A stretch of 40,931 nt of DNA, from positions 15,725-56,655 of the IMG/VR virus record IMGVR_UViG_3300030202_002808. One strand, given 5' to 3'. Within the stretch, counting starts at the first letter, position 1, and each line of letters starts with the position of its first letter. The notes under the pieces are model-generated. The model did no database searches. It had not been told where the DNA came from and saw only the letters and a list, made by a program, of their open reading frames with translations. The position numbers and the translations under genes were made by a program. Source of the stretch: a virus. Below, in pieces: positions 1-20,421 of this stretch.

Positions 1-174
1 GGCACGACTGGGAGGATCCCCGCGCGGTGTGAGTTCAACAATAGATTGACCCGGCATATAAATCAATGTATCACCAGAACGGCGACCCATTAGTTTATCA
101 AGAAAACCCTCATCTATTGTGGCTTCGAGTTCTTCTTTGATGAGTTGTTTAAGTTGTGATTTTGTAATTTTCAT
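1..174 (-). CDS. Hypothetical protein with MKI..S.L...I.EE N-terminal tag (partial, runs off left edge)
   Basis: An ATG on the minus strand at 174-172 opens a frame of 58 residues that is still open at base 1, so the C-terminus is missing. The protein begins MKITKSQLKQLIKEELEA and continues with a charged stretch and a GRRSGDTLIYMPGQ segment. The ATG shares its A with the TAA stop of the upstream sbcCD-like gene (TAATG), which suggests translational coupling. The first 16 residues match the pattern at the start of the 3546-4442 protein (M-K-I-x-x-S-x-L-x-x-x-I-x-E-E) although the rest does not. This looks like a transferable N-terminal tag and contains an I-x-E tripeptide at residues 12-14, the kind of site cut by T4-type prohead protease. 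No family is recognised for the visible remainder. Confidence 0.75.
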   Translation of the reverse strand, partial: MKITKSQLKQLIKEELEATIDEGFLDKLMGRRSGDTLIYMPGQSIVELTPRGDPPSRA

Positions 175-3100
175 TATTGGTTAACCTTTGCAAATCCTGC
201 TTTCTTGTCAATTACGATTTGCATGTCAACACAATCTTTGAGTGAATCAAGGTGGGAGATCAACAAAACGTTCTTAAAATACACTTTAATTAGTTCCAAG
301 ATCTGAATAAAACCCGACATATTATCTTCGTCCAATGCGGTTCCAGGTTCATCAAGAATGAATAAGTCTGATTTTGGTAATGACGAAACTCCCAACAATG
401 CCAGACGGATAGCCATTGCAGACAGTGACTTCTCGGCACCAGAGGCCATTTCAATTGGTCGTTCTTCATACTTTGGATGCTTAATATTAATATCAAATTT
501 ATTGCCTGATGCTTCGAAGAAAACTTCGAAGTCAACAATGTTAGCAAGCACCTTAGCAATTTCTTCGTTAATGACTGGAATCTTCTTCTTGATTACGTCA
601 TAGGCAATGCCATTTGGGTGCATGCAACGCATAAACAAATCATATGCAGCAAACTCAGTTTGTAAGTCTCTATACTCTTGCTTTTGTTCTTTGATTGTCT
701 CAATCTTTTGTTCGTATGAACCAACAGACTTAACAAGCTCCAGTGTTGCAGTATCACAATTGGTAATCTTACTTTCGGTTTGTTGAATCTTATAATGACA
801 CTTATTAAGCTGTGTTACAAGAAGCTCAAGGTTTTCGATTGCTTCCTTGTTTTCTTCGTATTCGTCGCGTTTAGCACACAAGTCAGACAGTTCTGATTCC
901 ACTGAGTGCAGTGTGTTCTTGTTTCTTTCTATTTCTAGATTGAGGTCAGCGATTTCTGAAGACACAGTGTGTTTGTTAGATTCCATCTTTCCGTAGCGTT
1001 CAAGTTGAATCTCTACGTCAAGTGGGTTCAGGTCGTTGATTACCTCAGTAATGATATTTATGTTCTCTAATACTTCTACCTGTTGGGTTTCAATAATACT
1101 CTTCTGAGACACGGCTGTATGTGCTTCTTTGACAAACTCATTTTCACAGCAGTATTGGCAATCAGGGTCGTATTCATGACCGTCAAGCAACTTCTCCTTC
1201 TTCAACACTTCATTGTGGCTTTCGAGAAGTTTGTCAAGTTCTTCTTCTTGTAATGATAACTTGCTTCTGTTTTGTTGAATCTGGCTCTGCAGGCCCTCAA
1301 ACTTTTGTAAGTCAAACTCACCTAAGAAGTTGGTAATCTTTTTATACACACCTTGTTTGAGTTTTAGATCCTCTTCGTTCTTGCTATTTTTTAGATTCAA
1401 AGCAGTAATTTTATTCTCTTCTGCTCGAATACTACTGTTGATTGCGGAGATATCGATTATCTCAGCAGGGATTGAATCAATCTTGCTTTCGATTTCGTCT
1501 TTAACTTCCACCAAACCTGCGTGTGCTTCTCGCAAAACAGTGCAAGTATTCTTGTGTTCTGCCATCTGCGTCTTTGATTCTTCAAGAGAGGCTGTGGCTT
1601 TCTCCAAATCTTCGTCGTAATTTTTAGATTCAAGGCGCTTTAGAGCACCTTTGAGATCAACTGAATCTTCTTTAGACAGTTTGAATTTACGGTCAAACAA
1701 CTCAAGGTCTAAGAATTTTGCAATGATTTCTTTACGACGTGTCGAACCTTCATCAATAAATGCCAGAGCGCCGTGCTGTGATGACAGTGAGGAGACTGCA
1801 AAGTCGTCAAGGGTACCAAACTTCTTTCGAATATTAGCGTCTGTTAGTGTTCTTGTGAGGCCATTCAGTGAAGTTGTTTCATCCATAACTGGGTCATACA
1901 CTTCAAAATTGAGTTCTGTTTTAGCCTCGTTTGTTTCCTCGCCTTTTAGTCTTTTGATATACTTCTTTGCTGCTCTCTCGACTGTATACGTCAAGTCATC
2001 GATTTGAATTGTTACTTTGCCGCGGCATTCATTCTTGTTCTGATTGATGACATTGAGATTCTTTCTTTCATTTTTAGAAGTTGTGTTAAACAGCGTCCAC
2101 AGAATACCATCAACGATACTACTTTTACCAGAAAAGTTTTTACCAAAGATGCCAATAATACCGCTTAGCTCATTAAAATTAACGTCGTTGTCTTCGCCAT
2201 AATTAAAGAGATTATCAAATTCAAAGTCAATCAGTCTCCAGTTAATGTTTCTAGATACGTCTTCATTGTCTTCTACAATCTGGTTATACTTCTTGTTTAA
2301 CTCATAAACCTTTTCGATTGTTTCCTGTGATGCTTCATAATCTACCAAGTATTCATCGATAAGTTCTTCTTGAACTTTGATGTCTCTCAAGTTCTCAGTC
2401 TGTAAGCCATCGGTAAGCCCGTCAACCGAGCCGCGTTCACCAGATGCCCTGTTAAGGAATGAAATGCTTTCAGGCTTGAACCGGTGCTTGGCGATGTCTA
2501 CTGCCCTCTTCATCGTATCTAACGGAAGATTATTGTTGCTAACGAGACGCACACGAGCACCAAGCGGAACAGAAATATTCTTTGGCATTCGTCCTTTGCG
2601 AGTAAGCTCAATAGTAATGAACGGCTTTGGGTTAACAAGCGATACATGACGAGTGCTCCAGTTATGCTTATCTTCAATATTCCAAATAAGATAACCTTTA
2701 TCGTTTGATTCGCCGTGGTTCTGTTGTACCAGGGAGCCAGGGTATCTCGCCCTGCCATCCTTATCTACCTTTTGATCTGTCTTGTGGATGTCACCGAGTA
2801 AAGCGTAATCGTATTTCTCAAGCTCATCAAGAGAGATATCACCGTGCGTCATCATCCAGCCACTGTCAGTTACCGAGCCGACAACTGAGCCATGGTATAG
2901 TGCAACATTGACACGATCTTCTGGAAGTTCTTTCTTCCAATTCTCTGGATCTACAATAGATAAGACATGCAAGTCGATACCATCTGCTACTTCTACTACT
3001 GATGCGTGTTTGTGAAAGTGAATGTTTGGGTGGTTAAGGTAATCAACAATGGGCGAAATAGCATCGAGCCGACCACTATTCTTTAGATTCATGTCATGAT

Positions 3101-3338
3101 TACCCAGAATCATGTGATATGGTGCTATGTCTGCTAGACCAACAAACAATTCACTCATCATCTTGATCGCCTCGGGGCTTAAATCAAGTTTGGTGTGAAA
3201 TGTGTCACCGGTATTAACGATAATATCAGGCTTTTCTTCTCGAAGCTTCTCGTATAATTGCTCGAAAACTGCTCGATATTCTTTATGGTACTTCAATTTT
3301 CGGACGTGGATGTCCGATACGTGTGCTATTTTAATCAC
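174..3338 (-). CDS. sbcCD: Fused SbcD-SbcC (gp47-gp46-like) recombination nuclease/ATPase
   Basis: One chain of 1054 residues carries both halves of an Mre11/Rad50-type complex, which processes DNA ends for recombination-dependent replication. The N-terminal 250 residues are a calcineurin-like phosphoesterase: D9-x-H11 (VSDIH), GDTFH near 44-48, GNHD near 79-82, a YHGS motif and GDIH. From about residue 380 comes an SbcC/Rad50 ATPase: Walker A GKNFSGKS near 396-404, a long coiled coil split by a CxxC zinc hook (CQYC near 727), signature SGAEKS near 964, Walker B LFILDEPGTAL near 993 and a LISH switch. In T4 and most bacteria the two parts are separate genes. The start is GTG at 3338, because AAGGAG lies five bases upstream; the longer TTG-initiated frame (3377) has no such site and would overlap the small gene at 3350-3478. 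Function is confident; activity of the fusion is inferred. Confidence 0.93.
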   Translation of the reverse strand: MIKIAHVSDIHVRKLKYHKEYRAVFEQLYEKLREEKPDIIVNTGDTFHTKLDLSPEAIKMMSELFVGLADIAPYHMILGNHDMNLKNSGRLDAISPIVDYLNHPNIHFHKHASVVEVADGIDLHVLSIVDPENWKKELPEDRVNVALYHGSVVGSVTDSGWMMTHGDISLDELEKYDYALLGDIHKTDQKVDKDGRARYPGSLVQQNHGESNDKGYLIWNIEDKHNWSTRHVSLVNPKPFITIELTRKGRMPKNISVPLGARVRLVSNNNLPLDTMKRAVDIAKHRFKPESISFLNRASGERGSVDGLTDGLQTENLRDIKVQEELIDEYLVDYEASQETIEKVYELNKKYNQIVEDNEDVSRNINWRLIDFEFDNLFNYGEDNDVNFNELSGIIGIFGKNFSGKSSIVDGILWTLFNTTSKNERKNLNVINQNKNECRGKVTIQIDDLTYTVERAAKKYIKRLKGEETNEAKTELNFEVYDPVMDETTSLNGLTRTLTDANIRKKFGTLDDFAVSSLSSQHGALAFIDEGSTRRKEIIAKFLDLELFDRKFKLSKEDSVDLKGALKRLESKNYDEDLEKATASLEESKTQMAEHKNTCTVLREAHAGLVEVKDEIESKIDSIPAEIIDISAINSSIRAEENKITALNLKNSKNEEDLKLKQGVYKKITNFLGEFDLQKFEGLQSQIQQNRSKLSLQEEELDKLLESHNEVLKKEKLLDGHEYDPDCQYCCENEFVKEAHTAVSQKSIIETQQVEVLENINIITEVINDLNPLDVEIQLERYGKMESNKHTVSSEIADLNLEIERNKNTLHSVESELSDLCAKRDEYEENKEAIENLELLVTQLNKCHYKIQQTESKITNCDTATLELVKSVGSYEQKIETIKEQKQEYRDLQTEFAAYDLFMRCMHPNGIAYDVIKKKIPVINEEIAKVLANIVDFEVFFEASGNKFDINIKHPKYEERPIEMASGAEKSLSAMAIRLALLGVSSLPKSDLFILDEPGTALDEDNMSGFIQILELIKVYFKNVLLISHLDSLKDCVDMQIVIDKKAGFAKVNQ

Positions 3339-3343
3339 ACATT

Positions 3344-3348
3344 CTCCT
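3344..3348 (-). promoter_or_regulatory. Shine-Dalgarno site AGGAG that fixes the sbcCD start
   Basis: AGGAG lies five bases before the GTG at 3338 and just after the TAA of the 42-aa gene. It is the reason for preferring the 1054-residue form over a longer TTG-initiated form. Confidence 0.7.
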
Positions 3349-3349
3349 T

Positions 3350-3478
3350 TTAGTTGATGTAAGACACACCCAAGCAAGCGTGTAACATTATTGGTACAAC
3401 AAAAAGTCCAAAACAGTAACCAACTTCGAAGATAACAACTTTAAGAATAACGTTTAAAGCTATAGCGAATGTCTTCAT
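3350..3478 (-). CDS. 42-residue hydrophobic miniprotein, probable membrane protein
   Basis: This short frame begins ATG AAG ACA TTC and encodes MKTFAIALNVILKVVIFEV followed by a second hydrophobic run (YCFGLFVVPIMLHACLGV) and ends YIN. A GAGGG ribosome-binding site lies five bases upstream and a plausible sigma-70-like promoter lies just before that. The TAA is followed at once by the AAGGAG of sbcCD, so the two genes look like a transcription unit. The composition, almost entirely hydrophobic with few charges, suggests one long or two short membrane segments. No family is recognised; small early phage membrane proteins often act on host envelope functions, but nothing here shows that. Good signals and clean spacing make it a likely real gene, but it is short and unsupported by homology. 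Confidence 0.6.
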   Translation of the reverse strand: MKTFAIALNVILKVVIFEVGYCFGLFVVPIMLHACLGVSYIN

Positions 3479-3545: not shown

Positions 3546-4442
3546 CTATTTGGTTCCCTGACCGGTCACTTTATTCCAAATTTGCATGTAATATTGTGAT
3601 GGTGACAATTTTGAATTTGGTAACTCGGGATTAATGGCGTCAAGCAATTCATAGGTTTCATACCCAAATGATTCGCCGCCTTTCTTAACAAAATCAAATC
3701 CCTTGGGGTGAATTTGCTGGGCGGCTTGCTGCATCTTTTCCTGATTGCCACCGATGTCTTCCTTATCTACTTTGGCTGGATTGAAGTCGGGTAAGTTGTA
3801 CCGGTCTTTGTAAGTCTTCACATAATCTTCTGCTGACACATCAGCGCTGCGTACATCAGTAATGCTGGGTTGTAAATCTGACTTGTATATAACACCTTTA
3901 GCAATTTGGTTGTTGATATCCTTGAATACCTTTTGAACGACGCCTCTTTCACCAGAAAGCATTTGTGTACGTCCTCCCATATAATCTTGGAAGATGGGAA
4001 AGTTTTGTCTTTTTGTTACGGTTTGTTGAAAGTCTTCTCCTTCCTCACCACCCACAGATTGTTGATCGGCAGCAGAATCTAGGCTCCACATATATTGAGC
4101 CGTTGCTCTTAATAGATTTTCCGTATCCTCAAGAGCATATGCTGATAGTTCTCTTTGAATCTCAACACTTTGTTCTGCCGCGGCAACTCTAGCTGCAGCA
4201 ACATCAGCCCTCTTGGAAGTTTTGTTTTGTAAAACACCCAATAAAGGAGCGGCAATAGCCATTGTTAAGAGCCCCTTCTTAACCATTCTTTTTATGTTAT
4301 TCGCATCAGCAGCCTTGACCGCTTCCAGGTCTTTATTTTCCGATAAGAATTTATTTAATTCTTCTTCAATAATTTGGTCTATTATGCGATGAGCGACTTC
4401 TTCGTAAATAATCGTTCTTAATCTTGATTCTATTATTTTCAT
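3546..4442 (-). CDS. Hypothetical protein with shared MKI..S.L...I.EE tag and one hydrophobic segment
   Basis: The 298-residue protein starts MKIIESRLRTIIYEEV, the same pattern as the gene at the left edge. A helical charged stretch (IIEEELNKFLSE) follows, then a hydrophobic segment at about residues 57-71 (LLTMAIAAPLLGVL), flanked by lysines and possibly membrane-spanning. An alanine-rich helix with VAAARVAAAE follows. The C-terminal third is soluble-looking, with a KTYKDRYNLPDF motif and an NPELPNSKLSPSQYYMQIW ending. It begins ten bases after the primase stop, with only a weak AGAAG site, so it is probably translated with the primase. I recognise no family. The tag with its I-Y-E tripeptide at residues 12-14 suggests a protein targeted to and processed in the prohead; a membrane role is the alternative. 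Confidence 0.8.
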   Translation of the reverse strand: MKIIESRLRTIIYEEVAHRIIDQIIEEELNKFLSENKDLEAVKAADANNIKRMVKKGLLTMAIAAPLLGVLQNKTSKRADVAAARVAAAEQSVEIQRELSAYALEDTENLLRATAQYMWSLDSAADQQSVGGEEGEDFQQTVTKRQNFPIFQDYMGGRTQMLSGERGVVQKVFKDINNQIAKGVIYKSDLQPSITDVRSADVSAEDYVKTYKDRYNLPDFNPAKVDKEDIGGNQEKMQQAAQQIHPKGFDFVKKGGESFGYETYELLDAINPELPNSKLSPSQYYMQIWNKVTGQGTK

Positions 4443-5391: not shown

Positions 5392-5615
5392 TCTTCACCA
5401 ATTATATCAAAAAAGCCTTCTCTAAGTGGTATCGGACCAGCATGAGCTTGTTGAAAAAAGTATGCTTTAACCATACCGTTTATCGGATCAACCCCTATGA
5501 CAATACCATAATCTTTCAATGGCTTAAAATCAAAGTATATCTGGTGTTCCAAGAGAGAACTATTATACCATTTTCTCTTTATTAAGTCTCCTACCTTTAC
5601 TTTGCGGCTAGGCAC
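5388..5615 (-). CDS. Small SH3/KOW-like protein A
   Basis: This 75-residue protein starts at a GTG inside the end of the uvdE gene (19-base overlap) and ends in an ATGA overlap with the primase. The sequence has the shape of small SH3-like beta-barrel proteins common in marine phages: VKVGDLIK near the start, DYGIVIGVDP in the middle and a short C-terminal strand (FFDIIGEE). It resembles the other small protein at 6574-6828, with the shared order K-V-G-D-(L/I), G-I-V and V-x-P. A role in binding nucleic acid or a partner protein is possible but not shown. The GTG is the only reasonable initiation codon before the VGD motif. Confidence 0.7.
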   Translation of the reverse strand: MPSRKVKVGDLIKRKWYNSSLLEHQIYFDFKPLKDYGIVIGVDPINGMVKAYFFQQAHAGPIPLREGFFDIIGEE

Positions 5616-6529
5616 TTCACATTCTCACGGTACCGGAGCAGTGCCAGTTCTTTGTGCTTAGCCTCAATCATGATGTCAAACTCATTGCCGTAATCATCGA
5701 GCGTGTTGTATACAAGATCGGAGTGCGCTTGTGGCTTAATCTTTGGGTTGTTGTGTTCGAGAGAACGAGACTCTGCGTAGTGAACTACTGGCTTGATGTC
5801 ACCCCATGTGGAGAGTGCAAGCTCAAGGGCTTCTTGCTCTGTCTGGCCGCCGGGGTGCAGCATGTGGTGGTGGTAGTCGAACACAATTGGAATACCAATG
5901 CGCTTGTATACACCCTCATACAACTCCAGTGTAGAATACAATGACTCTTTGTCATCGTTCTCGACAGTCAAGCGAGAGCGAACATTGTCAGGCAGACGCT
6001 CGAAGTTGCGACAGAAGTTGTCGAGAGCAAATGGCTTGTCACCATAGGCTGCACCAACATGAATATTAAGTTTGGCATACGGAGTGCGCGGTAAACCAAT
6101 AAGGTCAAATAAATCACCGTGAACCGACAAGTCAGTCTTGGTGAGTTGATATACACGCTCCTTGGGTGATGCTAGCTTGTTAAACGGCCCAGGATGCGAT
6201 GTGAGCCGCATTCCGTGCTTACGGGCAAAGTTGCCTGCCTTGAGTGCCGCGGCGTGTATAGCACCGAAATTAGGCATGTCTACGAGGTCATACTCGGAAG
6301 CCCACGGAATAATATTGGAGGAAAGCCGATAAAAGTAAATATCGTGCTGTAGATTCCATTCTAGAATCGTGTATAAGTCGCGCAAGTTCTGCAATGCAAG
6401 TTCTGCAGCATACTCGATTCCGCGGTCGTGAAACGTGCGCTTAATCATAGTGCGGTTAGTGGTGATGCGCTGCGACTTTGGCAGCGTAGAAAAGCCTTGA
6501 TTGATACAGGCGTAGCCCAAGTAGTTCAT
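5597..6529 (-). CDS. uvdE: UV-damage endonuclease, UvdE/UvsE family
   Basis: The 310-residue protein matches the UvdE family, TIM-barrel enzymes that nick DNA 5' to pyrimidine dimers and other lesions in a metal-dependent way. Visible family motifs run in order: LGYACIN (4-10), YRLSSNIIPW (67-76), SHPGPFN (111-117), NIHVGAAYGDK (145-155), LTVEND (187-192), FDYHHH (217-222), HYAESR (250-255), AHSD (268-271) and DIMIEAKHKE (285-294). The conserved His, Glu and Asp residues that bind metals are present, so it should be active. The start is ATG 6529, because a GGAGG site lies eight bases upstream; the longer frame to 6577 begins at TTG without such a site. T4 uses the unrelated DenV for the same purpose. 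Its stop lies inside the next gene. Confidence 0.95.
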   Translation of the reverse strand: MNYLGYACINQGFSTLPKSQRITTNRTMIKRTFHDRGIEYAAELALQNLRDLYTILEWNLQHDIYFYRLSSNIIPWASEYDLVDMPNFGAIHAAALKAGNFARKHGMRLTSHPGPFNKLASPKERVYQLTKTDLSVHGDLFDLIGLPRTPYAKLNIHVGAAYGDKPFALDNFCRNFERLPDNVRSRLTVENDDKESLYSTLELYEGVYKRIGIPIVFDYHHHMLHPGGQTEQEALELALSTWGDIKPVVHYAESRSLEHNNPKIKPQAHSDLVYNTLDDYGNEFDIMIEAKHKELALLRYRENVKCLAAK

Positions 6530-6537
6530 AATATTAA

Positions 6538-6542
6538 CCTCC
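6538..6542 (-). promoter_or_regulatory. Strong Shine-Dalgarno GGAGG that fixes the uvdE start
   Basis: GGAGG is eight bases before the ATG at 6529 and is the best ribosome-binding site in the left block. It excludes the longer TTG-initiated frame and suggests that uvdE is translated efficiently on its own rather than by coupling. Confidence 0.7.
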
Positions 6543-6573
6543 ACATAAAGCATAACCCATGCGATCGTGGTTG

Positions 6574-6828
6574 TCAATCAGTTTCTTCGTCTTCTGCACG
6601 ATGGAGCAAAATTAAAACCGATGCGGGTAACTCTTCGGTCAAAGCATTGTCTAACCAAAGAACTATAATTCTGTCTTGCGGTTCTTGACCGAAATAAGTG
6701 CTGAGAACAAAAGCGTCCGGTTTGACGTTTAGAACTATGCCATTCCATCGCTCTCGGTCATCTGGAACAATTAATTCCACTTCTGTTACAATGTCACCGA
6801 CTTTAAGTTCTGTTTTTTCTTCAAGCAC
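6574..6828 (-). CDS. Small SH3/KOW-like protein B
   Basis: The 84-residue protein has the same layout as the one at 5388-5615: LKVGDIV near residues 8-14, WNGIVLNVKP, a strand ending IIVLWLD and an acidic tail (AEDEETD). The VGD ... G-x-V ... W-x-D pattern is typical of small SH3-like phage proteins of unknown function. It starts with GTG seven bases after the ruvC stop and has no clear ribosome-binding site, so translation probably depends on coupling. A nearby ATG (two bases upstream) is in another frame. The two small proteins bracket uvdE. Confidence 0.72.
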   Translation of the reverse strand: MLEEKTELKVGDIVTEVELIVPDDRERWNGIVLNVKPDAFVLSTYFGQEPQDRIIVLWLDNALTEELPASVLILLHRAEDEETD

Positions 6829-7435: not shown

Positions 7436-8668
7436 CGTTATATCTTTGTCTTCTTCTTTCAACACTGGATCTGCTAAAGTGGCAATCCCTATTAGGTTTT
7501 TGTTGTTATCGTAAATAGCGACTCTGGATACATAGACTTGACGTTTAAAGTCTTCATCAAAGGTTGCAAAACTAGAGGAGGTAATATTTTTGATTCTCCT
7601 GTTAGGGTTTTCTTCGAAGACATTTGAGCCAGATCTTAAGAGATACTCTTGCCCTTTTTCCAAATATGTTGGATTATTGGAGTAATTTGCTTCGCCGCGG
7701 CGTGCGTTGGCAAACATGGTATATGTCTGGGTCTCGGTGACTCCTTCAAATTCCATATTGAAAGATGCGGACTCAAAAGATGGAGCAGCCGTGGCATTGT
7801 TTACACCATCCAGCGCTCCGGCGCCAAAGTAAATCCATTTTGGGTGATCTATTGTGCCATTATCCAATAAGCCCATTGCTGTATCATTGAGTCTCCATGA
7901 ACCAGTCAACATTATTATGCCTTCATTATACAGTACAACACCCGCAACCTTGTTATTATTTGCAGATGACGTTCCAAAGGTCTGTATCAGCTCACCGTTT
8001 TCCTTGTTGTCCTTCAGTTCACCAATTAAGGAGCCGGTGAAGTACCATTTCAGAGACACTGAGCCAGGATTGATCTTGGAGCCGTAAAAGATAGATGGTA
8101 CGTGAACTGTGTTAATTTTTTGTTTGTCTTTGTTCCAGCCACCGTCTAAAGACGAACTTACAATATAATGTTCGCTCATGTAGCGATAGTTATTTAAACG
8201 AGTCTTAAGAGCATAGTAGTGAGGATATATTGGTCCGCCGGCGTCGGCGGTCACGGAACCCTCCGCTGTATCCACCATGTCGTATCTGGCGCCGGCTTGT
8301 GGACTCATAAATTCTCGTGTGATCGAAGCAGTCAAGGGGTAACTTTTGCTTACAGTGTCACCGTATATAAACTCATTTTCGTAATCAACATCGCCTACGG
8401 TTTTGAAAGATGCCCGGGCACTGTCTTTCGTAACAAAAGCAGTTATAAAACTGTTTGTTTCAGCGTTGCGGTCAATGTTGTATTCAAACAAACTAATACC
8501 ACCACTAGCACTGCTGGTGATATTTAAAATGTTGTTAGAGAATGAACCGGATTGATGAGGCAGATTGTTATAATATATCTTTGACTCATTTATCGTAATG
8601 TTGACATTGGGATATGCCCGCATTGTATTCAGCACAACATCGTTTGGGCTAAACTTGCGGAAAGACAT
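7412..8668 (-). CDS. Virion structural protein, paralogue 2 of a tandem pair
   Basis: The 418-residue protein is rich in Ser, Thr, Asn and Gly with beta-strand-like segments and no signal peptide, as in phage tail or baseplate proteins. It is homologous to its upstream neighbour (8671-9741). Matching blocks are INPGSVSLKW against IKPGTVNLQL, VAGVVLYNEGIIMLTGS against SHGVVFYQSGIAVISSS, NYSNNPTY against NYSSNPTY, and the C-terminal SRVAIYDNNKNLIGIA against TTIGLYNARNELLATA. Both end in a short strand of basic and hydrophobic residues (KLKLDI, RVRLDY). It starts two bases after its partner's stop and is the last gene of the structural block. The exact position in the virion is unknown; I recognise the family only as recurrent in marine myoviruses. 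Confidence 0.8.
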   Translation of the reverse strand: MSFRKFSPNDVVLNTMRAYPNVNITINESKIYYNNLPHQSGSFSNNILNITSSASGGISLFEYNIDRNAETNSFITAFVTKDSARASFKTVGDVDYENEFIYGDTVSKSYPLTASITREFMSPQAGARYDMVDTAEGSVTADAGGPIYPHYYALKTRLNNYRYMSEHYIVSSSLDGGWNKDKQKINTVHVPSIFYGSKINPGSVSLKWYFTGSLIGELKDNKENGELIQTFGTSSANNNKVAGVVLYNEGIIMLTGSWRLNDTAMGLLDNGTIDHPKWIYFGAGALDGVNNATAAPSFESASFNMEFEGVTETQTYTMFANARRGEANYSNNPTYLEKGQEYLLRSGSNVFEENPNRRIKNITSSSFATFDEDFKRQVYVSRVAIYDNNKNLIGIATLADPVLKEEDKDITFKLKLDI

Positions 8669-8670
8669 TA

Positions 8671-9741
8671 CTAGTAATCCAATCGAACTCTGATAGTCAA
8701 TTCATTTGATGGAGTTTTCTTCAGTGGTTCAGACAGTTTAGCGGTGGCTAACAATTCATTTCTTGCATTGTAGAGGCCAATTGTGGTTACGTACGCTACT
8801 GGATTTTCGCTAGCGTTGTTCTTAACTCTAATTTTGCTGCCTGATGTGTATGTAGGATTCGAACTGTAGTTGTACTTATTGACTGGCATTCTACAGAAGT
8901 AGATTGTAGAGTTAATTTCTGTAGAGTTGTTGAACGTAAGGTTAGTCATTCTGTGTCTAACAGCGTCACATGTTCCTGAAATTGATGCAGAGACCAAGGA
9001 CTGATCGAATGTCAGTGCGTCTGGAGTACTACTGCTAACCGCAGAGCCACTGTTGAAATCTGCAATTCCAGAAAATACCGAGGAAGAAATAACTGCAATG
9101 CCTGATTGGTAGAACACTACGCCGTGGCTCGAAGATGGAGTTTCAATAGCCAAACTTGCGGTTGAGTCGAATAAGACTCCGTAATCGCCACCAATAGTGT
9201 TAGTCGTGCCGTCTCCAGTAGAAGAAGCGGCTGTATCTTGGAGTGATATAGTTGTGAGGTGAGGGTTAGCCCATGCGCCGCGGCCAAGTTGTAAGTTAAC
9301 TGTACCTGGCTTAATTTGGTCTTTTGTTAATAATCTAGACATAGACACAACAAATACTTCCTTCATGGAACCTGTTGTATCAAGCCTCAAATCACTTTCA
9401 AACAATCTTACTGTATTGGTGCTACCTGTATAACCCAGAAGAACCTGCGAAAACTGGTTGTAGATATTAATCTTTTTATTGTTAATTGTCGCAGTTGAAG
9501 CAGACAACGGAGAGGATTCATCGTAACCACAAGTAAGATCAAAGATATGGTTAGCAGACGAACTAAGAAATGGGTAGTCGTATACTGATTGGAACATACC
9601 GTGGGTAAAGTTTTTAATGTTCTCATCACTGTAAGTTCCACTAACGATGGAGCCGGTGAGAGGGATTACCTCGTGTAATAAAGTTTTTGTTGTTGTAACG
9701 TCCGTATTAACATTTAACGGCTCATAAGAAAGGGGCATCAA
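8671..9741 (-). CDS. Virion structural protein, paralogue 1 of a tandem pair
   Basis: The 356-residue protein shares its layout with the downstream 418-residue protein: a variable N-terminal half, a central block with PGTVNLQLG and GVVFYQSGIAVIS, then NYSSNPTY and a conserved C-terminal domain (YVTTIGLYNARNELLATA, LSEPLKK, RVRLDY). The last 45 residues look like a compact beta domain used for assembly. The two genes are separated by a few bases and are probably an old duplication. Two subunits of a ring or fibre attachment layer, or alternative tips, are both possible. No catalytic motif is visible. Confidence 0.8.
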   Translation of the reverse strand: MMPLSYEPLNVNTDVTTTKTLLHEVIPLTGSIVSGTYSDENIKNFTHGMFQSVYDYPFLSSSANHIFDLTCGYDESSPLSASTATINNKKINIYNQFSQVLLGYTGSTNTVRLFESDLRLDTTGSMKEVFVVSMSRLLTKDQIKPGTVNLQLGRGAWANPHLTTISLQDTAASSTGDGTTNTIGGDYGVLFDSTASLAIETPSSSHGVVFYQSGIAVISSSVFSGIADFNSGSAVSSSTPDALTFDQSLVSASISGTCDAVRHRMTNLTFNNSTEINSTIYFCRMPVNKYNYSSNPTYTSGSKIRVKNNASENPVAYVTTIGLYNARNELLATAKLSEPLKKTPSNELTIRVRLDY

Positions 9742-10805: not shown

Positions 10806-13736
10806 TTATTCTTCCAATTTTACGCTGGGGTCATTATAAGTAATGTTTAAATCGATTTTTTTACCAGTTTTCTTGGATGTCAATCTGATTTTGAACGTTT
10901 CACTCCAAATTAACTCTTGATTTGATGAATTTCCAATTACAAGTTTATTATACTGTGATTCTGCAGATTGTGTATAGTCCACCTCTGAGTCATCAAAAAT
11001 AGTCTGTGACAAGTTGGGTACTAATTGAAATATGTTTTTGAACTTTTCGTTCTTGTTTTTGTAAATATCAACCGATAGATCTTCCTCAAACAATACTTCA
11101 AATTGCGCGTATTTGTAGCCGCCGTCATTTACAAGCTCAGCCTCAATTACGGTGTCGGTATTGCCAGCGATACCCAACTCATTAACAGCCCTAAAAAGAT
11201 AGTAATACTTAACATTAGATTTTACTATGTCCGAGAACAGTCCGGTTGTATATGTGTATTCTGAGCCATCTATTTCCAGCGAAACATTAGAAAACTCGTT
11301 ACCTTCGAAGTCTTGAAAACTTTTTGGCCTTTGTGTTAATCTAAAAATTTGAATTGTGTTTGCAGGGGATACTGTTGGTTTCTCTACGTTAGTAGAGCTA
11401 ATGTAATCTTTTGCATTTAAGTATTGTGATTTTACAGTTTTGTCGGCTTCCGTAACTTCTCTTGGAAAAGGCTGGCTTCTAAAGGTCTCATAGAATATGT
11501 CAAATAAAATCCTATTTGAATTATCAAGTGCATAGTTTGGCACCACATTCAAATCGTTTGGTGGGTTGTCTAGCACTCTAAAGGCTTTTTGTGTGATTGG
11601 CACTTCAATTAGTTTAAGAGAAGGCTGAACGGTTGTAATAAAGTTAGCAAGATAAGGTGGTAGAACACCGGTGCTTGAAGTGGAGGCTGCGGATTTTGCG
11701 ATTCTTTGCGCTTCCGTTACAAACGAAGACATTACTTCATCTGGTGTATCTCCATAAATTGAACTCTCAAGCATATCAGTGGTAATATCACCGGTTTCAG
11801 GGTCGTAGAACTCTACACAATATCCAGTAATTGGAGATTCGGGATCTGTGGCATCTTCCCTTACTGAGCCAATAATCCTTGAAATCTGTAGGTTTGCAAA
11901 TTTATACTTGAATCCCTTTACTGCATAATATGCATATACTTTATATGTATACGCAGTGTCGTATTTGACTTGGGTATCAAACAGGTTGAATTCTTTTAAA
12001 TGTAAACTATTGAATACCCAAAAGTTTTGTATCGTGCTCTGTGTATTGGAGTCTCCAGTAGCTAAACCACCAATTTTTTCTACTCGATAAGCGAGTATTT
12101 CGTGGTCTTTCACGTCTGGGGTTAAATTATTAAACTTGTCTACTTCAAAAGAATGAACGGTGTCGTTTTGAGAGTTAAGTAGCAGATTTATGTTTTTGAC
12201 TGAAAATGCTTTTGTATTGGTGGAAAATGTTTTGGATATGTCGTTAATACAACGAAGCGCGTTTCGCGCATTAAGGGCACGGTAGACACCTTTGGTATCG
12301 TACGCAGTGTCTGTTTCTAAATTTTTGTAATCAACAACAAAGAAATCTTCGTTTTCTTCTTTGATTTTATTATGAGAATAAAGCATTAATTCGACTAAAT
12401 CAACAGAGCGCAGCACTGTATTGTCCGATGAGGTGTATACTTGATCGAAGTTAGTTCCGTCTCCAGGTACCGCTAATTTTTGATTTTGTAAAAACTCTAC
12501 TGGTTCCGGCACTAATTCATCAGGAGATTGTCCTAAGAAAACTTCTTTAAGAGATTTTAAAAATCCTGTGCTAAATTGATTTTTTGCAATAACTGCGGCG
12601 TAATAGTCGCTCTGCTTTGTGCTGAAGGTTATTTTGTTGTAGAACGGCATAGTGCTGACAAGTTGTTTGGAGGCATCTCCTTCAAGGGTTCGTGTTGCAA
12701 AATCATTAAATAATACGTTGGAAAATCTTGAATCGATGTAATTTAAAGATTCTTGTGATATGTTCGAGGCAGACACTGGCAATGAGAAATCTAAGTATTT
12801 TATCATTGGGCTGATACCAACAGATCGAATTACTCCGTCTTCTATGTCATCTTCAAATCGATTGTTATAAATATTGTATAGATTATCAACTGTTATTGAA
12901 TTGTTGAGAGAGTAGTAATTTGTTATGTTGGCGTCTAACACCAGAGAGTCAGTCTGATAAGCTGCCAAACCAAAGGCATAAAAGTTTGGAATGGTTCTTT
13001 CGGTTTCTTGCGAATCGGTAAAACTCTGGTATCTTCTTAAGATGTGATTATACTCGCAACTTAATTGAATGTAATTACTAATTTCGGCCCCATTAACTAG
13101 CAATTGTTCTTGAATTTTAGCGTATGGCATCGTGGTGGTTATATAATGATCGTCGTAAGTCCCATCAGAATATATTGGAGTGATTGTGTTGTTTCCGAAT
13201 GGCTTACCGGTAAACAGACAATCCCAATATTTAGAACCCTTAACTACATCCGAAAGCATTGGATTTAGTGGATCACCTTCAATGTGGGTGATAAATTTCA
13301 TATATGGTAAGACTGTTTTTTGTCTTATTCCTAAATCAGATGCTACTTCACCTCTTTCCTCTCTATTACCTATTTCACTTTGCACCTCAACACCTGTAAA
13401 GGAAGTAATCGAGTGAACGAATTCGTTTGGATTGTCAACTGGTAAGAATTTGTAAAATGGAGGAGGGACCATGTATTCGCCATCATCGCTGGTCAAATTA
13501 AAGAAATACCCTCCGACTGCGTTTCTTAAAAGATCAGAAGAACCTGATAACAAATTTAAATCTACGAAAGATATCTGTTTTTGTCTTAAATGATATTCTC
13601 CACTGGGTCTTGCAACAAGCCTATATTCATATACCTCTGATGCCTCTGTTACATCAGCAGGGGGCTCGGGGAGAAGGGGTCCAACTTCGGCTGGGCGTTC
13701 CGCCATATCAGGGACAAACGCTTCAGTTGTAGCCAT
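10806..13736 (-). CDS. Large virion structural protein with fibronectin-III-like segments
   Basis: The 976-residue protein has a Pro/Glu-rich N-terminus (VGPLLPEPPADVTEASEVYEY), a long middle region with no family I recognise, and two segments resembling fibronectin type III strands: DTAYTYKVYAYYAVKGF near 589-606 and YYYLFRAVNELGIAGNTD near 845-863. The C-terminus has KIRLTSKKTGKKIDLNITY. Fn3-like domains are common spacers in phage tail proteins that reach the cell surface. The stop shares its last base with nothing downstream, but its start is coupled to the upstream 344-aa gene by TAATG. Assignment to the baseplate or fibre region is from position only. Confidence 0.78.
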   Translation of the reverse strand: MATTEAFVPDMAERPAEVGPLLPEPPADVTEASEVYEYRLVARPSGEYHLRQKQISFVDLNLLSGSSDLLRNAVGGYFFNLTSDDGEYMVPPPFYKFLPVDNPNEFVHSITSFTGVEVQSEIGNREERGEVASDLGIRQKTVLPYMKFITHIEGDPLNPMLSDVVKGSKYWDCLFTGKPFGNNTITPIYSDGTYDDHYITTTMPYAKIQEQLLVNGAEISNYIQLSCEYNHILRRYQSFTDSQETERTIPNFYAFGLAAYQTDSLVLDANITNYYSLNNSITVDNLYNIYNNRFEDDIEDGVIRSVGISPMIKYLDFSLPVSASNISQESLNYIDSRFSNVLFNDFATRTLEGDASKQLVSTMPFYNKITFSTKQSDYYAAVIAKNQFSTGFLKSLKEVFLGQSPDELVPEPVEFLQNQKLAVPGDGTNFDQVYTSSDNTVLRSVDLVELMLYSHNKIKEENEDFFVVDYKNLETDTAYDTKGVYRALNARNALRCINDISKTFSTNTKAFSVKNINLLLNSQNDTVHSFEVDKFNNLTPDVKDHEILAYRVEKIGGLATGDSNTQSTIQNFWVFNSLHLKEFNLFDTQVKYDTAYTYKVYAYYAVKGFKYKFANLQISRIIGSVREDATDPESPITGYCVEFYDPETGDITTDMLESSIYGDTPDEVMSSFVTEAQRIAKSAASTSSTGVLPPYLANFITTVQPSLKLIEVPITQKAFRVLDNPPNDLNVVPNYALDNSNRILFDIFYETFRSQPFPREVTEADKTVKSQYLNAKDYISSTNVEKPTVSPANTIQIFRLTQRPKSFQDFEGNEFSNVSLEIDGSEYTYTTGLFSDIVKSNVKYYYLFRAVNELGIAGNTDTVIEAELVNDGGYKYAQFEVLFEEDLSVDIYKNKNEKFKNIFQLVPNLSQTIFDDSEVDYTQSAESQYNKLVIGNSSNQELIWSETFKIRLTSKKTGKKIDLNITYNDPSVKLEE

Positions 13737-14770
13737 TAGTATGTTCCTCCGGGTGATGCTGGTGTTGTGGAGACGGTAGATACCACAGTTGTTGTTGTAG
13801 GAGCGCTTGTGGTCGGCGTAAATCCTTCTATAGCTTCGTCATCTATAATATTTTCGAACAATTCTTTAGTAAAATCTAATTTCTTGGTGGTCTTAGAGAG
13901 ATCTAATCTTTGCATTACTCCGGTCGCCAAATCATCAATAATATTTGTCATTGCTAGATCAAGTCTTTCCAATGTGCCATTATATGGGTGTGCGTCAAAA
14001 GTGACCGCATCATATCCAAATTTGGCTATTATAGCTGTTCTTTCGGGCGAAAACCACACACCGGGTGGATATGGATTGTAGGGCAGCGAGTAATGCCAAT
14101 ATTCGGATTCCTCTGGTAGACTTAGTGCTGGGCTAGGGGCGGAAGCGCCAGCAGTGTAAAAGATGTCAACAAATCTGGTATCCCAAACACCAGTGGACGG
14201 ATCATTGTATACACTGTATAAGGCTAATGCGTTAATAGATACACTTTTTGTTAATGCTGCAGCATCGTCAAGGAGCAATACAAACTCGGACGGATCGAGT
14301 GTTTCTGTTCTTTCAAACCCGTATACGCCTGATGGGCCTAGCATAGCCGACTTGGGTATAACGCCGTTGTTTGCCCTCGTGTAATCAGATATTTTTCGAC
14401 CGGTTAGTACAGTCAAAGCGGGGTTGCTAGATGCCAAAGAGGGTATTAAAGCGAGCCTTTCATCTAAAATCATTTCTCCTGAAAAAGTTGGGATTGCTGA
14501 GTCACCTGTAGGTATATCAAAACCAGTGCCCGGGCCTGTTCCAGGGCTTATGGGTGTAGCTTCCGGGGCCGTCATGACTTCGCCCATGGTTTCGAATTCG
14601 TCGGGGAATGAGTATGATGGTGCAGGCGCGCCGTCTCTTGGCGCGGTGTCTGGTGCTGCGCCTCCAAAGGTCGCTTCAGGAAGTGTGGAACTAGAGTCAG
14701 TGGAAGGGGCATATGCAGAATCGCTGTAGATTCCATAATCCGAATAGAGGCCGGGTGAAACTGATGGCAT
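13736..14770 (-). CDS. Virion-associated protein with low-complexity Pro/Ser/Thr ends
   Basis: The 344-residue protein has a disordered N-terminal third rich in Pro, Ala, Ser and Gly (DTAPRDGAPAPSYSF, ISPGTGPGTGFDIP). A compact central region follows with SEFVLLLDDAAALTKSVSIN and PYNPYPPGVWFSPERTAII. An acidic helix (FENIIDDEAIEGF) and a Thr-rich tail (TTTTVVSTVSTTPASPGG) end the protein. Both ends look like flexible linkers, so the central region may bridge partners. TAATG junctions couple it to both neighbours (13736 and 14770), which suggests fixed relative amounts with the 976- and 183-residue proteins. No family is recognised. Confidence 0.75.
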   Translation of the reverse strand: MPSVSPGLYSDYGIYSDSAYAPSTDSSSTLPEATFGGAAPDTAPRDGAPAPSYSFPDEFETMGEVMTAPEATPISPGTGPGTGFDIPTGDSAIPTFSGEMILDERLALIPSLASSNPALTVLTGRKISDYTRANNGVIPKSAMLGPSGVYGFERTETLDPSEFVLLLDDAAALTKSVSINALALYSVYNDPSTGVWDTRFVDIFYTAGASAPSPALSLPEESEYWHYSLPYNPYPPGVWFSPERTAIIAKFGYDAVTFDAHPYNGTLERLDLAMTNIIDDLATGVMQRLDLSKTTKKLDFTKELFENIIDDEAIEGFTPTTSAPTTTTVVSTVSTTPASPGGTY

Positions 14771-15321
14771 TACTGAGTTCCTTTAAAGTATTTGTTTTTT
14801 CCGTAATAAACGGGACTTTGATTTAAGACTGTAAAGCTGGCTGCTATGAAGGAAGGGTCAGATTTTTTAACTTCTTCTTTTTCTCTTGAGCTGTTGTCTT
14901 CATCAAGTTGATAGAACGGATCGTTGTCATCTTTGAACTTATCACCTGTTCCAGTTTTTGAATTTACTGTATTTGCAAAATCTTTTGTATCAATAATATT
15001 TGGGTTTTTTTCTTCTTCCTTGTTGGAGTCGCTTTCAAGAAGAGAGAAATCTCTTGGCAAGTCATCAATCGTAACATTCATAAGCATAAGCATTTCTTCT
15101 GCTAACTGTGGTCTATCTTTGTTGACAGCAGTTGTTCTTGTCTTTCTGGTCGATAATCCTGTTTTTGATTTTAAAGATGTCAGTCCAGATTGTACGTTAT
15201 ACAATGTGGGATCTGTTGATTTACTAACAATTTTATCACCCAGTATTGTTTTATCATAATTTGTACGAGCAGTCTTGGCTGTGCTGATTTTGGTTATTAA
15301 TGGTGCGGGTATATTAAACAT
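14770..15321 (-). CDS. Hypothetical charged protein in the structural block
   Basis: The 183-residue protein has a basic N-terminal half (STRKTRTTAVNKDRPQ) and an acidic, Lys/Glu/Asp-rich second half (LLESDSNKEEEKNP, DEDNSSREKEEVKKSD), ending in a short ordered-looking tail (FTVLNQSPVYYGKNKYF). The composition suggests mostly disordered sequence with short binding segments, as in scaffolding, chaperone or linker proteins. It lies after the 61-base gap that follows the 1287-residue gene, so it may start its own transcript. The TAATG junction couples it to the 344-residue protein. No family is recognised. Confidence 0.7.
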   Translation of the reverse strand: MFNIPAPLITKISTAKTARTNYDKTILGDKIVSKSTDPTLYNVQSGLTSLKSKTGLSTRKTRTTAVNKDRPQLAEEMLMLMNVTIDDLPRDFSLLESDSNKEEEKNPNIIDTKDFANTVNSKTGTGDKFKDDNDPFYQLDEDNSSREKEEVKKSDPSFIAASFTVLNQSPVYYGKNKYFKGTQ

Positions 15322-15382
15322 GTTTTATTCTCTTATAGTAAATATGATGGCAATAAAAATATTATCTGTTTGATTTGTTTTA
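15322..15382 (-). promoter_or_regulatory. 61-base AT-rich gap, possible internal promoter
   Basis: This is the largest gap inside the structural block and is nearly all A and T in the gene direction. It contains TTGATA soon after the preceding stop and TATAAG at 15337-15332, eleven bases before the ATG. Neither pairs with a convincing partner at 16-18 bases, and the T4 late box TATAAATA is absent. A phage-specific late promoter is possible. No hairpin is seen. Confidence 0.25.
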
Positions 15383-18300
15383 TCAAGAACCATCTGGTGT
15401 TCCAGTGGTATCAGTAAAATCACCAACAAAGTCGACTACTGGTGATTTTACATCAAAAGCACCAGACTGATGGAATTCCACAATCACCCCACTTGGGTTA
15501 CAAATTTCATTTGCTAAAATTCTAGAAGACTCATTGATTACCAGCAAGAACTCGTAGAATTTTTCTGCTTGTTCTCTGAAGTTTAGTAGAGCCTCAAGTG
15601 TGCCAGTTTCTGGTTTTATTTGATCTAATACAGAATTGGCAGAATCCAACATTAAGCTATTCGAACCATTAAATAAGTCTGTAAACATATTTACATACAA
15701 TACATGTAGGGAAACCATCTTATACCACGGCTGGTTTCTGGCGTCTGGGAATTTACTTAAAATTCCTTCCACAAAAAAACTGTTAAATTGCATATTAAAT
15801 TCATCGTAAGCACAACTCTCTGAGGCGGGTTCAACATATTCTTTAATAAACTCTTCATATATTATTATGTATTTCTGAATAATTGCATTTAAGACATGAT
15901 AAGAAGAGTCATGAATTTCGTATCTAAGCATAACCTTGTTATTGGAATATTCTGTATCTGTCGGATCTCCAAGAAAAATCTTGTCATCGTCTAAAAACAT
16001 TTGATAATAATACATTAATAGGCGATAGTTTTCTCGCCATGTCTGCTCTCCATACAGGGCAGAATCGGCAAAATCGGTAAAGTTGTAATTCCTCATCACC
16101 AAGTGAGACGCTGTTCTTTGAACGCCATATGTCGACGCGGCCATTTCGATGTTATAGTCACCAAGCTCAGTAGTGGAGTCATCTAAAAAATTAGTACTAA
16201 AGAAGTCACTGTATCTAAAGCCTCCTTCGATTGCACCGACTTGTTTATAAACCTGTCCGTCAGCTCCAAGCTGACATTCAAAAGACATACTATCAAAGTC
16301 TGTAGGATCTGATGCTTTTTCATAATCTGCTGAGGCGGGTGAATTTAAAATCATATTGGTCTTATGTGTGAGGTTGAAGGAGTGTACTTGGGCCACCTGC
16401 ACTGCGTTATTTAACATTTCATGCGATAAGTCCATCGTCCTAAGCATTCTATCAACGTTTACAAACCTTGATATAAATGAGCCGCGGCGCATGTACTTTT
16501 CCATATCGTAAAAGAAGAAGCCAGATTTTTTAACCACAATATCTATATTGCTTAAAACAGAAAGACCACCAGTATCGTATTCGGTGTCTCTAAAATATTC
16601 AGATGCTTCGGCCATAAAATCTGTCAGCCTTTCTTCAATCGAATCAGCTAATTGAGAAAATGTTGATAAAATGGCGTCTGATAAGTTTGCTTGTTCGGAT
16701 ACGGTCAAAGTACCATCAGAAATACGGCTTTGCAAGGATGACCAATCACCGCCTATAATCCCTAAAGTAGAACTAGTCATGGGCCCTCTTTTATAATTTA
16801 TAAAACGGGGCTGGCATAATACAGTGGTGCCTTCGTAAGCTTCTCTGAATGTCTGTGCGAGATAAAACTGAAGACTTTGTATTGTGCCTATGCCGGCAGA
16901 GACTGACTCTTCTAATTCAATACGCATTGTTTTGGCCCATTCTTCGGACCATGCTGTTCTTTCATCTCTTGTCATACCAACAAAAGGAGATGTAGATGGA
17001 TGTTCGAACATATCCATCATAGCAGATCTGGAATTTTCAATTAAAGTCTCGACTGAATCAATTACTGTGTCGTGTATAATATTATCAAGAACAGTAGTAC
17101 CCAAATCATCATCTATATCAACTGTAGCTGAAATCGCTCCCGTCACTAGTTCAATAATTATGCGAAAGATTTCTTCGTAACTCTTTTTTACAAGAAAGAC
17201 ACCTTCTGTTCTTCCGGACTCTGAAACTGTGCGAGTGTGAAATAAATCAATTACTGCGAGGTTCTCTTGCATGTGATCCGTCAGCACTTCGACACCGGTG
17301 CCGAAGCCAAGAGTAATATCACTTACTATTAATTCATAGTCATCAACTCCAGTTTCATCGATGGCGAATGTTTCTGACAATGTGGCAGTGCCGGCAACGC
17401 CATCACCTCTCTTTGGAACTGATAAAGTGAGGGGGCCGGTAATTAAATTTTGTACCAAAGATTGAACTTGTTGTAATGTGGTGCAGTGTCTTAAACCCTT
17501 TCCTTCTGAATAGAAATCTTCGGAGTATAGACCAGTTGTGGTACGACCGTAACTGAAAAGTTCGTCGTCCTCATAGGTCAGATCACCAATGCCGTGCCAG
17601 TCCTGTTCGCCCGGGCCAGCGCCAAGGTCGCGGGTGTAATCATCAAGGACGTATCTCAGTTCTGAGTTAACTTTTTCTATTGCTTCTTCTTTATCGTCAG
17701 CGAATAGATAAAAACGCCAGCCGTTGTAGTCATCAACAAAACTTAATGCATATGCGTCTGCAAAGTCTGTTAATTTTATCATTGCATCGCGTACAGGAGG
17801 TGAATTCCTTAGTGTTCCGCGGCCAAATGGGTTTACTCCGGTAAAGAAGTATGACCCTTCGTCTCTAATCACTCTTAGATTTCTTTCTAAGAGATTTGTA
17901 AACTCGCCGCGGAGCCTATCAATTTCTCCAGAATCAATCTCGGTAGAACCTGGGAACAATGCTTTTGAGGACGACTCTGGAACATATTTAGCTACGTTTG
18001 ATTCAATCGCTAACGGATATGCAAAATCGGAGTCAGTCAAAGTCTCATCAAACGATACAGAGGAGATATCTTCAAAGTTTGTTGCTCTAGCGTCAATCAG
18101 TTTGAAATTTCTAAGTATTCTCTTAACCACTTCTTCTTGGCCTAGAAGGGTTGTGTTTGAGTTTGTCACTACAATACGAAATCTTTCGTAAAGACGACCT
18201 GTTGTCGTTGCGCCACTCTTGGACGGAAATAATTCTTTGTATCTATTGAGACGAGGTAAGAATTCACTTGTATTGGAATACATTGCGATTACGTAATCAA

Positions 18301-19246: not shown

Positions 19247-20421
19247 ATTTCTGGTACAACCTCACTTCCATAAATATCATTGTAAACATTTTCAACACCT
19301 ACTTCATCACAATCAATATCCAAGTCAATATAATACGACGATTTGTTGAATATTTGTAATTGTTTACAAACAGTGTCTTTATCTACATTTTTGTCTTTGA
19401 CAAAATCAAAATAATATTCTACAGCTTTTTTAGTTAACTCTGTGTTGTCATTAAACAATTGGTTTGGACTAACCATGAGGCCGTTGACAACTTGGTCTAT
19501 TTTAGTTTCAAAAAACTTTCTTTCTAGATCGTTTAGAACCTTGGTGTCCCCAGTATCAGTGTTGACTTTAAATACCTCAACATCAAAATTGTCAGTCAAC
19601 AACTCCGTGTTAACTTCATCTACATAAATCATTGGAGTGTCTGGTGTAAGTTGGATATATCTATCATCCACGAATACATCACTTTGAATAGAAAATTGAG
19701 AAGAATCTAAATTAGAATTTATGTTTTTAATCTCTTTTTTGTAGTTTGAGCTTATATTGATTTGGGGAATGTTTAAGGACGAAGAGTTATTAGTTTTGTA
19801 TTTCTGTGTGGAACTGTCTATTTTTCCGTTCAAAACAACCACTTTCCATGCCGGTGCAACATTTGTGTTCCTACCATCCAAGAAAGCATCACCGATAGCT
19901 GCATCAAATTTAAATATGTCTATTCTTGGCTGCAGCATGGTGGGTGTCTGGTCTACAGCAAAGTAAGAGGGTGGCCGAGGGCTATTCACGAAAGCACGGG
20001 AAGCTATTTCAGAAGCTAAGGCTGTATCTGTTACGGGCGTAGCAGTCAGTGTAGGAGACTCCAGGTCGCCTTCAGGTGATATCACCGGCGTGCCTAGGCC
20101 TAAGCCGTCTACAATGACATCACGGGGTGCTAGCGACAGTTCTATATTCAATGCTGGAGGCTCGGTGGGGTTGGTCTGTAACCTTCCATCTACATTATCA
20201 AACAGCACCAAACTTTCAATATAGGGTGTTTCCTCTTTGATCCTTGTGTGAGTTTGATTTTGAGATTCACTTATGTTTATATAAGCACTGTCATAGATGA
20301 TATTGTCATCGTAAAAAGAGTAATATGTAGGTTTGAATTTGCCGACTGATAATAAGTAATGTCCGTAGTTTGTCAACTTAAGATCATATACTCTTTCTTT
20401 TTTATCTAAAAGCTTAGCCAT
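19234..20421 (-). CDS. Virion structural protein with LT..G....G.F...DD.I.Y N-terminal domain (395 aa)
   Basis: The 395-residue protein begins MAKLLDKKERVYDLKLTNYG and continues HYLLSVGKFKPTYYSFYDDNIIYD. This is the same N-terminal domain as in the 338-residue protein at 9752-10768, in a form I associate with marine phage structural proteins. A Pro/Thr-rich linker with SPEGDLESPTLTATPVTD follows, then a domain with AWKVVVLNGKID (about 190-201) and a C-terminal acidic helix region ending DCDEVGVENVYNDIYG. It starts four bases after the stop of the 3181-residue gene and overlaps the next gene, so it is translated with its giant neighbours. A connector role between fibre and baseplate is a guess. 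Confidence 0.8.
   Translation of the reverse strand: MAKLLDKKERVYDLKLTNYGHYLLSVGKFKPTYYSFYDDNIIYDSAYINISESQNQTHTRIKEETPYIESLVLFDNVDGRLQTNPTEPPALNIELSLAPRDVIVDGLGLGTPVISPEGDLESPTLTATPVTDTALASEIASRAFVNSPRPPSYFAVDQTPTMLQPRIDIFKFDAAIGDAFLDGRNTNVAPAWKVVVLNGKIDSSTQKYKTNNSSSLNIPQINISSNYKKEIKNINSNLDSSQFSIQSDVFVDDRYIQLTPDTPMIYVDEVNTELLTDNFDVEVFKVNTDTGDTKVLNDLERKFFETKIDQVVNGLMVSPNQLFNDNTELTKKAVEYYFDFVKDKNVDKDTVCKQLQIFNKSSYYIDLDIDCDEVGVENVYNDIYGSEVVPEICQD

Follow-up and report, generated by a model that had tools for sequence, protein, structure and literature searches.

The two minus-strand ORFs at the left end of the window carry a conserved N-terminal tag (class A) that is probably a capsid-targeting propeptide, comparable to the CTS of T4 internal proteins but with a sequence of its own. 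The window is the whole stretch of 40,931 nucleotides that was analyzed, bases 15725–56655 of the 56,655-base IMG/VR record IMGVR_UViG_3300030202_002808 (labelled L004). The tag was portable among unrelated bodies, its conservation ended at protease-type sites, homologous bodies exchanged it for another tag class, and the tags shared a genomic context with a prohead protease and its gp23-type substrate. The proteins that a phage injects along with its DNA are the first to act in host takeover and against host defences, and in uncultured phages they cannot otherwise be distinguished from the remaining small ORFans. Should the tag indeed be a capsid-targeting signal, matching N-termini to a simple pattern would flag hundreds of candidates for injection in uncultured T4-like phages.

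The tagged ORFs of the window and the class-A tags of the record are located as follows.

Window 1..174, minus strand: class-A tagged ORF, body function unassigned, start codon at 174, 58 residues in the window.
Window 109..174, minus strand: tag of this ORF, residues 1–22, MKITKSQLKQLIKEELEATIDE, which fits the consensus of 220 tagged proteins.
Window 3546..4442, minus strand: class-A tagged ORF of 298 aa, from the ORF listing.
Window 4338..4442, minus strand: residues 1–35 of the 298-aa protein, which contain its tag, from the sequence.
Record 8739–8783, 9302–9346, 13200–13244, 15854–15898, and 20122–20166, minus strand: class-A tags matched by a loose pattern.

The ORF starting at 174 (N-terminus MKITKSQLKQLIKEELEATIDEG in the ORF listing) runs off the left edge of the window, immediately beyond which an assembly gap of 10 Ns (record 15715–15724) interrupts it. 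The 298-aa protein, which starts at 4442, begins with MKIIESRLRTIIYEEVAH. The initial annotation had described two unrelated bodies with a common N-terminus, and both minus-strand ORFs were confirmed. Convincing whole-protein BLAST alignments among the tagged proteins of the record were limited to the first ~20–40 residues, and the bodies beyond residue 24 showed no significant similarity to each other in BLAST. The five tags in the whole record were all on the minus strand, and the reversed pattern gave none; the tags at 15854–15898 and 20122–20166 are those of the window ORFs starting at 174 and 4442.

The tag of the ORF starting at 174 has two (L/I)xE ends, IKE14 followed by E and IDE22 followed by G, and its predicted cleavage would therefore fall after E14 and/or after E22. 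In the 298-aa protein, the core is present twice in tandem, 13 residues apart (L8RTIIYEEV and I21DQIIEEELNKFLSE), with [LIMV]xE ends at residues 5, 14, 26, 27, and 35; cleavage after E14, E26/E27, or E35 (LSE followed by N) is possible. A relative of this protein on another contig (91% identity) retained the tag. The 298-aa protein had no Pfam match and no convincing PHROG match, and the Smoothelin, YqbF HeH, and RII-binding assignments considered for the two window proteins were discarded as sub-threshold noise in Pfam/PHROG. The 159-aa tagged protein at record 8304–8783 (minus strand) ends at its C-terminus in LEELKKLIKKAMSESV, which resembles the class-A core. C-terminal processing is also known for T4 Alt (PMC9026906).

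Compared directly, the two window tags are identical at just 8 of 15 residues, as might be expected if lysine/glutamate-rich N-termini had become alike by chance. The distribution of the pattern refutes this reading. A strict DNA pattern matched once within the window and in none of 100 shuffles. When back-translated strictly, the class-A pattern matched at least 120 stretches of IMG/VR, often with two to four matches in each, against 0 matches for a scrambled-order pattern of the same kind. Each of 25 records contained one to nine class-A matches, whereas the reversed controls contained 0, and the tag was found in 0 of 50 random IMG/VR contigs. With these three controls, chance resemblance has become extremely improbable. 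The check proposed in the initial annotation, a search of this phage and its relatives for other tagged proteins, was strongly positive.

Among 84,980 GTDB genomes, the class-A pattern occurred in 13 stretches, mostly MAG contigs; one of these contigs also encodes a prohead protease, and another match sits in a WOR-3 chromosome. A tblastn search of 50,697 cultured phages with the 22-aa tag and both proteins gave no convincing match, but tblastn is insensitive with short queries and absence from cultured phages is thus not proven. The phages that carry the tag appear to form a large T4-like group, uncultured and mostly marine, their marine origin being judged from MAG names and from general knowledge of the IMG/VR collection rather than from sample records.

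To define the tag, 248 distinct class-A proteins were reduced to 220 body clusters, which gave a body-nonredundant set with the consensus MKITKxQLKxIIKEELxxxLxE. Information content dropped abruptly to background past residue ~22 in these 220 proteins. Accordingly, the 15-residue pattern of the initial annotation is real, but the conserved block is longer, reaching about residue 22. The less biased set comprised 196 ORFs picked by MKI[TSN]KxxL alone, each dispensable for retrieving its locus. In this set, where the search did not impose the motif, the I-x-E at residues 12–14 pointed out earlier proved about 95% invariant (I12 95%, E14 96%), and residue 15 was E in 81%, A in 10%, T in 3%, and S in 2% (together 96%). 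A cut at residue ~22 alone had been considered and was dropped on account of the same set.

A second (L/I/M)-x-E, imposed by no search, was strongly enriched at residues 19–22 of class A. The motif occurred within residues 16–30 in 157 of the 220 proteins, compared to 68 ± 6 in shuffles. Where residue 20 was L/I/M, residue 22 was E in 78% (9% in bodies), and the second site was followed by A/G/S in 63 proteins against 17 ± 4 expected. The effect was weaker in a separate set of 42 proteins with new bodies, of which 23 had the second site, compared to 454 of 1839 untagged genes (p = 4e-5). Both I12-x-E14 and the second site fit the (L/I)-x-E rule of T4 gp21. The class-A tag may thus be cut after residue 14, at about residue 22, or at both, and the proteins without the second site (about 28%; 45% in the separate 42-protein set) would rely on I12-x-E14.

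An alternative reading of the tag is an uncleaved docking helix for small accessory proteins of the head, neck, tail, or scaffold, in which (L/I)-x-E reflects amphipathicity only. An amphipathic helix would agree with the class-A consensus (computed moment 0.35), and the second (L/I)xE is missing from some tagged proteins. However, the polar positions 9, 10, and 13 of the 196-ORF set varied beside the 96% invariant E14, which argues that E14 is not mere helix chemistry. Moreover, conservation ended near E22 in class A and right past the glutamate in another tag class (class B), three unrelated tag classes converge on one ending, and a gp21-type protease is encoded. We consider an uncleaved helix unlikely.

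Class-A matches start at the ATG of ORFs no shorter than 40 aa, which places the tags at the extreme N-terminus, and an SD-like element was present upstream in 300 of 330 class-A candidates; gene starts were taken from a simple caller, and many records are fragments. In six records (L036, L042, L055, L071, L117, and L124), TATGAATGGATTAGCAAC or close variants stood directly 5′ of tagged start codons, possibly as a common expression signal or a cassette copied recently.

Two further tag classes were obtained by unsupervised N-terminal comparison of the same genomes and a directed search: class B, MK(L/I)(L/I)xE(N/S)WRx(Y/F)(L/I)xE (short form MKLLxENWRxYLxE), and class C, RKNxxxIDPRYF(L/M)xE. 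Both finish in (L/I/M)-x-E. Class B occurred in at least 120 IMG/VR stretches with 144 class-B bodies; its conservation stops at E14, with values close to background from residue 16 onward. Among 19 class-B ORFs in loci fetched for other reasons, 17 had hydrophobic-x-E at residues 12–14. In its spacing, aromatic-x-x-(F/Y)-(L/I)-x-E, and in this only, class B resembles the T4 CTS MKTYQEFIAEA cited in the initial annotation. Three adjacent genes of the record carry one tag class each.

Record 13627–14208: class-B tagged gene, first of the three.
Record 13247–13627: class-C tagged gene, middle of the three.
Record 12372–13244: class-A tagged gene, third of the three.

Tags were also exchanged between homologous bodies. 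The GNAT-like body that bears a class-A tag in L028 recurs in L019 and L121 with a class-B tag (E 4e-19 and 2e-19). In one case, a class-B protein of L113 reads MKLIMENWRKYLQE followed by GGNIF, and the called start of its L074 homologue is MGGNIF, so that the tag of the L113 type is absent exactly at the predicted cut. Such exchange bears on the idea that the tag is a relic or non-targeting N-terminal module (a translation leader, or a dimerisation or regulator-binding helix) spread by duplication and recombination. Duplication and shuffling were indeed seen in tandem tagged genes and recurrent body domains, and the tag codons are A-rich relative to body codons. Nevertheless, different tag classes on homologous bodies are predicted by neither a leader nor a relic, and protease-type sites are enriched. 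The peptide rather than the DNA is conserved, since synonymous codons in class-A tags vary; this indicates selection on the peptide and rules out a conserved DNA cassette. A non-targeting module is therefore quite unlikely.

A maturation protease is encoded near the left end of the record.

Record 1816–2436: gp21-family head maturation (prohead) protease, phrog_207, E 8.1e-57.

In an alignment with T4 gp21, this protein keeps GELxHP and G(I/V)SSRGxGSL, and the record also encodes a T4-type portal and terminase. Across tag-bearing records, phrog_207 was found in 25 of 38, including 12 of the 13 that are 100 kb or longer. At 50 kb or more, it was present in 19 of 23 tag-bearing records compared to 5 of 14 random contigs; given that the tag-bearing phages are related, this co-occurrence is partly phylogenetic, and some associations reflect descent. 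The gp23 capsid gene was also absent from all four class-A records (of 23) of at least 50 kb without phrog_207, and one of these four (G014) has a portal match. Among class-B records, 6 of 22 had phrog_207, all six ~140 kb or more, while in the other 16 the capsid gene was missing or near the contig end. Protease-less records that lack the capsid gene or have it at a contig end thus look like fragments.

A gp23-type capsid protein was identified in 19 of 21 related records; it was not seen in the window's own record and may lie past the contig ends. In their N-terminal region, the capsid proteins of relatives contain LLE↓G (17 of 17), LTE↓G (14 of 17), and LL(R/K)E↓(A/S) (11 of 17), where the arrow marks the predicted cleavage point. 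The T4 gp23 sites for comparison are LLE18↓G and LTE65↓A.

Many genomes have tagged ORFs inserted between the protease and the portal/core genes or immediately past the protease, and in several genomes such ORFs flank the protease gene; T4 holds genes 67, 68, 21, and 22 at the corresponding place of its head module. The tags were on the protease strand in 21 of 21 genomes, some of which may have few opposite-strand genes, so that the support from strand is weak. Counting against the capsid-targeting reading, several tagged genes, including both in the window, are among replication and repair genes instead of head genes; T4 ipI is likewise remote from the head genes. In most of these genomes, the protease is followed by a small ORF (record 1414–1812, minus strand) that starts with MKK(S/T)ELKxxIKPLVKECIxEVLxEEG; its N-terminus is like a long class-A tag, and it may be a core protein. 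Shortly past the protease, the head module also contains a ribosomal protein S21 homologue (record 1168–1410, minus strand; PF01165, E 3.4e-9), and S21 homologues are present in most head modules of relatives.

In T4, a CTS of 10–19 residues brings the internal proteins IPI, IPII, and IPIII and Alt into the scaffold core and is removed by gp21, after which these proteins are ejected along with the DNA (PMC9026906; PMC3012670). The tags described here are likewise short, putative N-terminal propeptides (14–22 residues) common to unrelated bodies and end in (L/I)-x-E, in many cases with a small residue next to it, in phages that encode a gp21-family protease and a gp23-type capsid protein. The T4 internal-protein CTS reportedly goes back to Mullaney and Black. 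The 19-residue propeptide of T4 IPI (NC_000866), MKTFKEFTSTTTPVSTITE followed by A, is dissimilar to class A apart from the terminal I-x-E. Class A is also longer, with a KITK start, paired isoleucines, and often two possible cleavage sites. Up to nine class-A copies occur per genome by a conservative pattern, in addition to classes B and C.

A related arrangement was reported for the giant phages phiKZ and SPN3US, in which a diverged gp21-like protease cleaves the propeptides of head and ejection proteins after x-x-E, and in this type of phage the diverged paralogues gp53 and gp54 have identical 15-residue N-termini (PMC5694885). The gp21-like protease is shared with the tagged phages, as the N-terminal propeptide and the x-x-E type of cut would be. 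However, several of the giant-phage propeptides exceed 100 residues and are cut after A/S-x-E, compared to 14–22 residues and (L/I/M)-x-E here (PMC5694885). The open-licence PMC papers searched contained no description of the tag; for CTS in marine phages only T4, P1, and giant-phage work was found, and four typical tag strings occurred in none of these papers.

The best cultured match of the record's protease was that of Flavobacterium phage immuto (MW353176). Like the tagged phages, immuto has a T4-type head module and neighbouring ORFs with common N-termini, FDLKKFLVENKLTTNSKILKE and FNLRSFLTENKLTKNAQLLKEG, which end in (I/L)-x-x-E or L-x-E; their sequence differs from class A, and no class-A tag was seen in the immuto head region examined.

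L310 4930–6230: two adjacent immuto ORFs with the common N-terminus FxLxxFLxENKLTxNxxxLKE.

This N-terminus is probably the tag of the immuto lineage.

The gp21 homologue, the I-x-E, the genomic context, and the cargo support the capsid-targeting reading of the initial annotation, and from them we infer core docking, cleavage, encapsidation, presence in the virion, and ejection into the host. Internal and prohead-core proteins would be made with an amphipathic N-terminal helix of ~14–22 residues, of class A, B, or C, which would dock the protein on the prohead scaffold core. The activated gp21-type protease would then cut after (L/I/M)-x-E, removing the tag and releasing the body within the head, where it would remain with the DNA and presumably be ejected into the next host. 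If so, the T4 delivery principle is conserved with its signal sequence replaced, and the classes offer new tags for loading proteins into phage capsids. More tentatively, at least three coexisting and interchangeable tag classes might form a lineage-wide addressing system that fills the heads of abundant uncultured marine phages with a large and rapidly changing set of kinases, acetyltransferases, zeta-toxin-like and nucleotide-modifying enzymes, and many ORFans, each class perhaps serving its own layer or stage of the prohead core. Were this true, the proteins that thousands of uncultured phages eject could be read from sequence alone.

Most tagged bodies are ORFans of no recognised family, and Pfam analysis of ten long tagged proteins gave no match. 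Domains in the mixed class A/B/C set were a TseH-like domain, GNAT, and DUF6321, and those of class-B bodies were zeta toxin/AAA, protein kinase, NUDIX, PolyA_pol, M23 peptidase, GNAT, and nucleotidyltransferase. The recognised domains suit proteins of the host-takeover type that act early in the host.

Several other genes were observed beside the tagged ORFs. Window 174–3377 (minus strand) is a 1067-aa ORF that fuses an SbcD-like nuclease (phrog_100 over residues 2–388) to an SbcC-like ATPase (phrog_77 over 333–1049); ORFs of like length and N-terminus are present in L044, L195, and L206. The T4 counterparts of SbcD and SbcC are the separate genes 47 and 46. Window 5600–6577 (minus strand) encodes a UvdE-type UV damage endonuclease (PF03851, E 2.4e-57), and window 20426–29971 (minus strand) is one 3181-aa ORF between baseplate-like genes. 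To the left of the window, a Tubulin/FtsZ-like GTPase (record 14218–15357, minus strand; PF00091, E 1.6e-7, which falls slightly short of the Pfam cut-off) adjoins the class A/B/C tagged cluster, and L202 has a similar ORF close to tagged genes.
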